Source: Lachnospiraceae bacterium (GTDB lineage: Bacteria > Bacillota > Clostridia > Lachnospirales > Lachnospiraceae). Taken from it: DNA of 64,000 nt. Location of the stretch: NCBI GenBank assembly GCA_024698705.1, contig JAILQX010000050.1, positions 1-64,000 on the forward strand, in the 5' to 3' direction. The notes under the pieces were generated by a model. That model searched no databases. It saw nothing but the letters and a program-made list of their open reading frames with translations, and was not told the DNA's origin. Of this stretch, positions 19,177 to 63,668 are shown in pieces (within the stretch, counting starts at the first letter, position 1; every line of letters starts with the position of its first letter). Position numbers and translations under genes: made by a program.

Positions 19177-19331
19177 AAAAAAAAAACCGCTTATTCATAA
19201 GCGGATCCGATAAGTTCAATTGATACTCAAATCCTCTTATTGTTCGACGTACTCGCTCAGGTTGGCACCTTCCTTACAGGGGTTGCCGTGGCTTCCTCGG
19301 TCCTATGTACCTCCACCACTCTGAATAAGAG
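19177..19331 (-). promoter_or_regulatory. SAM-I (S-box) riboswitch with terminator, upstream of metK
   Basis: On the minus strand the aptamer spans 19331-19234. P1 is formed by CTCTTATT (19331-19324) and AATAAGAG (19241-19234). Inside are CAGAG, GGTGGAGG, GAAGCCACGGCAACC and AAGGTGCCAACC, the core of the S-box class. The expression platform is a hairpin (CCGCTTA / TAAGCGG, 19204-19187) followed by ten T residues (19186-19177). Known mechanism: S-adenosylmethionine binding stabilises P1, the terminator forms and metK is switched off. Confidence 0.95.
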
Positions 19332-46984: not shown

Positions 46985-47165
46985 TAAGATATTTCTTAGG
47001 ATTTGACTCGTATTATCTTACTTATTTGCTTTTTATTTGTTTATCAGACATTGAATTAAGATAAGTGATAAGTTTTTCTCGATTGTATCTTACTTTCTTA
47101 TATGATTTCCTAAACCACTGTTCTAAAACTAAGATATTATAATCATTTCTATTCATTTTATCTTA
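46985..47165. repeat. paired-heptamer array, side A (three 36-bp units)
   Basis: Three units of TAAGATA-N22-TATCTTA start at 46985, 47057 and 47130. In each, the two heptamers are perfect inverted copies 29 bp apart, and successive units are 72 and 73 bp apart. The 22-base interiors differ completely. The surrounding DNA is AT-rich with no gene. The array ends 74 bp from the 3' end of the PD-(D/E)XK gene. Confidence 0.9.
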
Positions 47166-47169
47166 ACCT

Positions 47170-47209
47170 TCAATATAATCCCGCGCGAGCACGCTCATAT
47201 ATCCCGTAT
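47170..47209 (-). pseudogene. remnant of a second PD-(D/E)XK gene 3' end
   Basis: This 40-base stretch matches the last 40 bases of the nuclease gene (47240-47279) at most positions (AATATAA, CCCG, GCGAGC, ATATATC, GTAT) and on the minus strand still reads LARDYI near a stop, parallel to LARGYI of the intact gene. It looks like the tail of a lost tandem paralogue. Confidence 0.6.
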
Positions 47210-47238
47210 CCATCATTATCCGTGTGATCTCTTCCACT

Positions 47239-48060
47239 TCAAATATAACCCCGAGCGAGCTTTCTTATATATCTGGTATTTAACGGATATTTGGATGTTT
47301 CAAATGTGTATATGATATCCTTTCCGGAAATATATCCGTTGTTTTCATATCCTCTGATTTTTCCAAATGCATTATTTCTGTATTCAAGATCATCCATCAT
47401 CCCAAAATGTTCCCATATGATCTCTTTTCTGTCACTCATACGTAAAATAGTAAAGTCGGGATGTACCACACCTATTTTATTCAATACGATCGGCTTCTCG
47501 TAAAGATACGGTATTTGAAGATCATCCAATATTTCTGCAATGATCACCTCCGATTTGGAACGCATTTTTTCACCACGCATTGTATAAAATTCGAAAGCAT
47601 TTTCTCTGAATTCCGGGTTGTTATATTCCTGTTTAAGCCATTTTTGAATATACTCTTCATCACTCTCTATCGGCGGCACGGCTAAGATTCTTTCTCCTTC
47701 AGCCATCATTTCATATGCACTTACCCACGGATCCGAATCATGATATTTCAGATAGCTCTCCAACAGTGAGATTTCCTGTTCCAACGCATCGATCAAATTT
47801 CTGTCATATTCCTTTTGTGCAAGTTTTTGCGCCAGCCCCATGTTCCTACGGTTGATGTATTTACCGTTTTTGTCCTGCAGATCCTTCCTGATATGATATC
47901 TGTATGAGCCCTTTTGTTTATAGAATCGGAGTTTTCCTTCCGGTAGCCGCTCCATTTCCTTCATAACCTTATCCCTGATATCTGTTAAGGATTCAATTCT
48001 TTTTGCTATATACCCTGTTATGTTTATAATAATCACTCCTTTACTTTGATGTATGATCAT
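47239..48060 (-). CDS. predicted PD-(D/E)XK nuclease-like protein
   Basis: A protein of up to 273 residues. The N-terminal half is basic and helical, with a coiled-coil stretch near residues 76-105. The C-terminal half has the order expected of a PD-(D/E)XK nuclease: SKSEVIIAEILDD (Glu171), LYEKPI, VHPDFTIL (Asp202) and KEIIWEHFG (Glu217, in the position of the ExK motif, with His in place of Lys). The family call is by eye. The ATG at 48060 has no ribosome site; a strong AAAGGAG (48042-48036) lies just inside and would fit ATT or ATA codons at 48033-48025, so a non-AUG start is possible. The gene is flanked on both sides by paired-heptamer arrays. Confidence 0.72.
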   Translation of the reverse strand: MIIHQSKGVIIINITGYIAKRIESLTDIRDKVMKEMERLPEGKLRFYKQKGSYRYHIRKDLQDKNGKYINRRNMGLAQKLAQKEYDRNLIDALEQEISLLESYLKYHDSDPWVSAYEMMAEGERILAVPPIESDEEYIQKWLKQEYNNPEFRENAFEFYTMRGEKMRSKSEVIIAEILDDLQIPYLYEKPIVLNKIGVVHPDFTILRMSDRKEIIWEHFGMMDDLEYRNNAFGKIRGYENNGYISGKDIIYTFETSKYPLNTRYIRKLARGYI

Positions 48061-48081
48061 TTGTATGAATCGCTGGTACTT

Positions 48082-48346
48082 TAAGATAAAAACATGCTTT
48101 TTATTGTTTTTATCTTATAATTCAACACTCATCGTGTTTTTATGCACTATGAATTAAGATACATTTGAAAATAATAGATTGGATATCTTACCCAACAACA
48201 ATTTCAGCCCCAATTTTAGTCTGAGATGATAATAAAGTAAGATAAATCAGCCTTTTTAGTTATATTGATCTTAAAAAGGAAATTGTCTTCTTCTTGAAAA
48301 TGCTCATAGTTAAGAGGTTATGTTTGTTTTAGATATGATTCTCTTA
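48082..48346. repeat. paired-heptamer array, side B (four 36-bp units)
   Basis: Units start at 48082, 48155, 48238 and 48311 (steps 73, 83, 73). The first two are TAAGATA-N22-TATCTTA, the third ends GATCTTA, and the fourth is TAAGAGG-N22-TCTCTTA, where both halves changed T to G at the same position. The spacing inside each unit is always 29 bp between heptamer starts. Interiors are not conserved. The rest of 48061-48601 holds the mosaic repeat remnant and a terminator but no gene. Confidence 0.88.
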
Positions 48347-63441: not shown

Positions 63442-63588
63442 TTATGCAAGATATTTCTTAAGATCATCTACCTTGTTTAATGCCTCCCAGGGAAGCTTAA
63501 GATCGTTTCTTCCGAAATGTCCGTAAGCAACTGTCTGCTTGTAGATAGGACGTCTTAAGTCTAGCATCTTGATCATGCCGGTCGGATC
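63442..63588 (-). pseudogene. metK C-terminal remnant
   Basis: On the minus strand this reads [39 protein letters not shown] and DDLKKYLA followed by a stop, closely matching the last ~47 residues of the intact MetK at 17947-18090. The first ~345 codons are missing: just upstream the sequence passes directly into the 5' part of a SAM-I aptamer, so an internal deletion of more than 1 kb joined riboswitch to gene end. Confidence 0.92.
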
Positions 63589-63668
63589 TCGCTCGGGTCG
63601 GCACCTTCCTGTCAAGGGGTTGCCGTGGCTTCGCAGATCCTATGTATCTCCACCACTCTGAATAAGAG
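63589..63668 (-). promoter_or_regulatory. truncated SAM-I riboswitch
   Basis: CTCTTATTCAGAG (63668 onward), GGTGGAGATACATAGGA, GCGAAGCCACGGCAACCCC and GGAAGGTGCCGACC follow in the same order as the functional S-box before metK. The 3' P1 strand and the terminator hairpin are missing, so it cannot switch in the normal way. Confidence 0.88.

Follow-up and report, generated by a model that had tools for sequence, protein, structure and literature searches.

A predicted nuclease-fold protein family goes together with helically phased arrays of DNA dyads in genome-private dialects

Results

A 64,000-nt stretch of contig JAILQX010000050.1 from a Lachnospiraceae bacterium (assembly GCA_024698705.1, positions 1 to 64,000 of the forward strand; the window) carries an open reading frame (ORF) of 273 codons on the minus strand at 47239–48060, with an array of inverted heptamer pairs, or dyads, on either side. 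The downstream array (46985–47165) consists of three exact TAAGATA-N22-TATCTTA units at 46985–47020, 47057–47092 and 47130–47165, set at steps of 72 and 73 bp. In the upstream array (48082–48346), which lies 21 bp from the start codon and has steps of 73, 83 and 73 bp, two exact units (48082–48117 and 48155–48190) are joined by two that were recovered by tolerant matching, one with a single mismatch in its right half-site (48238–48273) and one, TAAGAGG...TCTCTTA, with three mismatches (48311–48346). An initial annotation of the window had listed these seven units and their steps, and all were confirmed, as was the change at the same position in both halves of the last unit; this is a T to G exchange at position 6, the left half bearing one extra change. 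Its count of eleven exact heptamers also held, the arrays spanning 446 bp rather than about 345. The pairing exceeds chance, since 100 dinucleotide shuffles of the window gave a mean of 0.00 exact units and a maximum of 0.

Most firmly supported is the association of the nuclease-fold protein family with helically phased dyad arrays, whose dialects (half-site sequences) are private to genomes and which are also found across the genome away from the gene. A scan gave 413 related loci, the best 80 of which were kept for comparisons and, with the window and a second copy from the same genome, form a set of 82. Using a tolerant detector, arrays of at least two units were found in 66 of the 82 loci against 2 of 82 dinucleotide shuffles, and arrays of at least three units in 49/82 against 0/82 (locus L055, an artefact caused by a run of N, was removed from real and shuffled counts alike). 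With 14 loci from congeners added and a wider step range, at least three units were present in 61 of 96 loci. The proposal of a dedicated array tied to a nuclease-like gene is thus strongly supported. A search for repeated inverted heptamers likewise showed that arrays are frequent among the loci; their heptamers vary widely, and close relatives have the same one. The longest array seen, from about 2703 in L191, has 15 units, mostly at a 53-bp step.

The spacing of the units follows the DNA helix. None of the 237 unit-to-unit steps at 61 loci deviated by more than 2 bp from a multiple of 10.5 bp; the steps form five classes (51–54, 61–64, 72–75, 83–86 and 94 bp) that correspond to 5–9 helical turns, and the per-locus median steps gave R = 0.86 at a period of 10.5, the maximum of 20,000 uniform draws being 0.43. 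In a further tally 113 of 114 steps were in phase, including 68 of 69 from 17 loci outside the 61-locus set. Steps of related arrays are non-independent, yet eight loci combine step classes while staying in phase. Apart from a few exceptions, the half-sites keep one register, mostly about 15 bp (12–18 bp) off the dyad axis. Across 78 arrays the mean GC fraction was 0.18 at the dyad centre, 0.53 at 4–7 bp from it and 0.515 in mid-gap, with the centre below the 4–7 bp positions in 71 of the 78 loci and AAAA and TTTT as the most frequent centres. Helical phasing and the centred A/T tract argue for recognition of the dyads as double-stranded DNA. The description of the unit interiors as not conserved thus needs correction in part, since the axis is an A/T tract in the family; in the window this tract cannot be discerned because both arrays have 23–26% GC throughout. 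When folded as DNA, six of the seven window units did no better than shuffles, the unit at 48082 folding well; as RNA, this was so for five, and two folded well. The phasing, together with the poor folding of six units as DNA, speaks against the suggestion of structured RNAs. A single ACAGATA array (L113; G000:C35:15263-15636) combines 61- and 72–73-bp steps, one helical turn apart, and on contig C54 of the same genome inverted GCCACGC pairs 30 bp apart show an 88-bp step outside the phased classes (L019, 8191–8367).

The protein of 273 amino acids is predicted to form an N-terminal coiled-coil hairpin with a beta tip (about residues 12–130) and a C-terminal PD-(D/E)XK nuclease fold (about residues 150–273). 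Its AlphaFold2 model has a mean predicted local distance difference test score (pLDDT) of 92.5 and a predicted template modelling score (pTM) of 0.72. R167, S168, K169, E171, E188, D202, W216, E217, H218 and D223 are among the residues invariant in a 66-row alignment, and by its predicted fold and conserved acidic active-site-like residues the protein has the features of the PD-(D/E)XK superfamily; the choice of catalytic residues is putative, and so is nuclease activity itself. A Pfam scan of the protein returned a sub-threshold RecX_HTH1 match alone, and structure comparison revealed a fold likeness to TnsA and to the EDxHD homing endonuclease I-Bth0305I. PADLOC matched PDC-S68 in all 66 family members and PDC-S69 in 39, in the nuclease domain only. 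With this resemblance to defence candidates limited to the C-terminal domain, the idea of a new defence module found no support. A 30% relative is encoded at 407–1135 of MT839528.1, a 4.2-kb faecal contig labelled bacteriophage.

Exact TAAGATA-type units occur 18 times in the source genome, at seven places of which the window is one (reversed-pattern control, 0); allowing up to two mismatches gave 62 units against 20 in the control, and one- and two-mismatch units form further arrays on contigs C17 and C26. Arrays of this dialect mostly have three units, at steps of 72–74 or 83 bp. They flank the gene, as first described, without being confined to it. The initial annotation had held that equally common pairs in unrelated intergenic DNA would speak against it. 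This is partly borne out, as pairs are indeed present elsewhere; they form arrays of the same geometry, with a reversed control of zero, and so enlarge the finding. Two homologues were found in this genome by single-sequence search, and a profile search gave three matches. The second copy adjoins a different site, ACAGATA-N21-TATCTGT, which recurs 58 times in the genome when one mismatch is tolerated, whereas its reversed pattern gave 0. Among the fetched stretches of the source genome only this copy's own encodes a homologue, none being present in 20 others picked for arrays or single units. The arrays elsewhere in the genome are intergenic, with one single-unit match within an ORF and one array overlapping a short ORF as exceptions, and show no orientation bias: their neighbours, the window pair included, are tandem in 14 cases, divergent in 4 and convergent in 2 (background in the same stretches, 56/14/9). 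At L015 (9331–9438) a two-unit ACAGATA array precedes an rpsT-like ORF; the gene that comes next encodes a pilT-like type II/IV secretion ATPase.

The dialects are private to genomes, as seen by comparing TAAGATA and ACATCGG across 20 genomes of the genus. TAAGATA units were absent from 18 of 19 congeners, the remaining one having a single unit, and congener G011 has 153 ACATCGG units, the 19 other genomes none. TGACTAA units number 22 in one Butyrivibrio genome and 15 in another. Eight other fetched G011 stretches lack a homologue, and throughout the four genomes checked arrays occur without the gene. The cognate gene of each dialect is assigned by nearness, and uncertainly so for the Butyrivibrio dialect. 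Homologues are present in 9 of the 20 genus genomes (source included), the closest outside the source being 38% identical; an orthologue of the window copy was not found among the other genus genomes examined. Across the class, matches turned up in 58 of 393 genomes; several of these have at least six, which is as many as were scored in any one genome, and many weak matches span the nuclease domain only.

Whole arrays exist as copies at different places. Three array pairs in the source genome are 79–84% identical. A solo copy of the downstream window array, 84% identical and in reverse orientation, lies at G000:C42:13043-13223. The G011 arrays, the two beside its gene among them, align to each other as duplicates of a single composite array that occurs in either orientation. 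Between the two Butyrivibrio genomes arrays turn over. Two array slots are conserved (L162/L171 and L167/L172), one array differs by three units within flanks that are 93–99% identical, and another slot holds an array in one genome and other DNA in its sister. At L165 (2002–2371) and L170 (1999–2189) both genomes keep the orthologous homologue, yet the arrays directly upstream of it share a dialect without resembling each other, as would be seen had an array been swapped and gene and dialect retained. Synteny between L164 (about 1890–1980) and L169 breaks at the array, as if arrays might be recombination points.

The window gene itself has NUDIX and GNAT genes as neighbours. At 35 of the 80 loci the gene has comEC upstream of it in the same orientation; one representative was confirmed by a Pfam Competence match (E = 1.3e-42). 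The congener locus L125 likewise has comEC; in four further loci holA lies downstream and the upstream sequence ends early. On a tree of the 82 proteins, labelled comEC (39, including the four holA loci), other (34) or unlabelled for too little flank (nine), the comEC label changes 4 times against a shuffled mean of 24.5, and the window copy branches outside the comEC clade. So few changes indicate that one large clade has probably remained beside comEC through vertical inheritance, even as its dialect shifted. Elsewhere in the window, two SAM riboswitches scored above the Rfam gathering threshold (19234–19331 and 63566–63668, both on the minus strand).

Discussion

We propose, with a probability of about 0.5, that gene and arrays are two halves of one system, in which the protein binds the dyads and cuts, so that arrays are copied. 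The proposal builds on the array geometry, the genome-private dialects, the whole-array copies and the confident nuclease-fold model, which we regard as established. The data strongly suggest dyad binding by the protein, which would likely act as a dimer on the inverted half-sites in double-stranded DNA, where the coiled-coil/beta-tip domain likely reads half-sites of 7–10 bp. The predicted PD-(D/E)XK domain would then cut or nick the bound DNA, and cleavage would lead to arrays being duplicated at other intergenic positions and remaining similar to one another; among mechanisms, we consider array spread or homogenisation through such cutting the most likely. What stands of the earlier interpretation is the dedicated array, structured RNA being improbable and defence having found no support, and element maintenance or spread fits best. 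Such a nuclease/array system was not found described in the literature searched, the journal coverage of which was incomplete.

Several points weigh against this proposal. Binding and cutting, as well as dimer formation and cleavage-driven copying, are steps that we infer. No array was detected in 15 of the 82 loci, to which the artefact locus L055 is to be added, so that homologues without arrays, named beforehand as counter-evidence, do exist beside the 66 loci that have them; one of the 15, L033, does show an array in the repeated-inverted-heptamer search. In the case of L097/L099, 1.85 kb separate the array from the counted gene, and the array's dialect is probably that of another homologue. 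The structural matches are modest, with coiled-coil rows scoring an equal Z, and Foldseek gave no match with E < 0.001. The correlation between half-site and protein is without specificity for the beta-tip region (rho 0.43, against 0.46 for the coil and 0.40 for the nuclease domain). Homology between paralogous arrays stops at variable distances, about 5 to 50 bp outside them, and neither shared termini nor target duplications were seen in the three paralogous pairs; a transposition mechanism is therefore not visible. Where array slots differed between the sister Butyrivibrio genomes, as three did, the counterpart was a different array, other DNA or a synteny break, and not a clean empty site. 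Finally, persistence at comEC suggests a host benefit beyond spread.

The comEC association bears on a different function, in which the arrays would label self DNA across the genome and the nuclease, encoded beside the ComEC uptake channel in one large clade, would read them in natural transformation; it would then either destroy DNA that lacks the label or prepare labelled DNA for recombination. We consider this possible in principle and on balance doubtful. The linkage in 35 of 80 loci, with four holA loci and L125 in addition, and the few label changes on the tree agree with it, and private dialects dispersed over the genome recall the DNA uptake sequence (DUS) dialects of Neisseriaceae (PMC3630211). 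According to the same paper, however, DUS copies number thousands, against 15 to 153 units here. Of the labelled copies 34 lie away from comEC, the window copy among them, several copies may be present in one genome, and double-stranded dyads would be unreadable on incoming single-stranded DNA; the linkage itself may be one old insertion, passively inherited. A DNA-uptake role is the boldest reading, possibly correct and kept open by the comEC association. In its full form, a ComEC-linked nuclease and co-evolving, helically phased arrays would make up a new kind of password by which Lachnospiraceae-type genomes identify self DNA during uptake, each lineage using its own dialect and several mutually orthogonal systems sharing one genome; this is slightly more doubtful still.

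Alternatively, the arrays could be operators or nucleoid-organising sites: by binding cooperatively on one face of the helix, the protein could repress transcription of its gene and also structure or control further intergenic stretches, with its nuclease fold needed for binding alone. Of the 34 loci with an array of at least three units and at least 1 kb of each flank, 33 have units upstream, 26 of them with none downstream and 7 with units on either side, and a single locus has them downstream alone. The upstream unit closest to the gene begins less than 150 bp from the start codon in 38 of 47 loci; phasing is, moreover, typical of cooperative one-face assembly. Still, we find this explanation unlikely, given that the active-site-like residues are invariant, that arrays show no promoter preference in the tandem, divergent and convergent counts above, and that regulation alone poorly explains whole-array copies.

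A classical transposon, with arrays as element ends, the PD-(D/E)XK protein as transposase and solo arrays as non-autonomous derivatives, would account for the three and four units that flank the window gene, for the TnsA-like fold and for arrays without gene. It is very unlikely, since 26 of the 34 well-flanked loci have the array upstream only, copies in the comEC slot seem to stay put, and the defined termini and target-site duplications of a classical insertion sequence, miniature inverted-repeat transposable element or Tn7-like element were absent from the three paralogous pairs. An RNA-guided or structured-RNA array, CRISPR- or TIGR-like, suggested by the regular 73-bp period of 36-bp units and by the few units that fold well (two as RNA, one as DNA), can be set aside as highly improbable, as the steps are quantised to DNA helical turns, most units fold no better than shuffles, no Rfam family was found at the locus at the gathering threshold and the window protein has no Nop domain in Pfam.

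If the proposal of a dyad-binding, array-copying nuclease is true, many gut and rumen bacterial genomes (413 related loci in one scan) combine a nuclease-fold protein with private DNA addresses in a partnership that has gone unnoticed. The recognition code would be naturally split into dozens of dialects, making a protein–DNA specificity code directly learnable, and the system would be a new case of a protein and dispersed sites changing together, possibly with self-recognition in DNA uptake.

Among known systems, CRISPR-Cas differs in that the units here are inverted heptamer pairs with variable interiors instead of identical direct repeats with unique spacers; the Pfam scan that bears on cas genes, covering the window gene and its two flanking genes, gave NUDIX and GNAT for the neighbours. 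TIGR-Tas was rejected, as a Nop domain was not found in the window protein at E <= 1. Superfamily 1 (SF1) helicase/AAA nucleases and PADLOC PDC-S68 have a related C-terminal nuclease domain; unlike them, the window protein has no helicase part and has its own N-terminal domain and arrays. TnsA of Tn7 and I-Bth0305I share the PD-(D/E)XK-type fold with the window protein, and Tn7 ends bear multiple-site arrays. Unlike in Tn7, a transposase partner was not noticed among the conserved neighbours and arrays are dispersed without the gene, and unlike for EDxHD homing endonucleases, no intron or intein setting was seen. The DUS/ComP system of Neisseriaceae resembles the present one in its lineage-private, dispersed short sequence, with an uptake-gene neighbourhood in one clade here. 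It differs in having thousands of single short words read by a pilin, compared with dyad arrays of tens to 153 units (18, 58, 22, 15 and 153 in the dialects counted) and a nuclease-fold protein.

The REPIN/RAYT system (REPtron, TnpA-REP) requires the closest comparison. REPs are palindromes handled as single-stranded DNA by a HUH enzyme (PMC8266576, PMC3116915). Here, in contrast, phased double-stranded arrays of up to 15 dyads have spaced half-sites and an A/T centre, and the protein is a predicted PD-(D/E)XK protein in which the Pfam scan found no Y1_Tnp (HUH/Y1 transposase) domain. Because two defining features, the HUH domain and stable single-stranded hairpins, are absent, we do not file the system under REPIN/RAYT. 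What the two have in common are a protein gene with dispersed, mostly intergenic inverted repeats of matching type, the coexistence of different groups in one genome, and the co-variation of repeat and protein.
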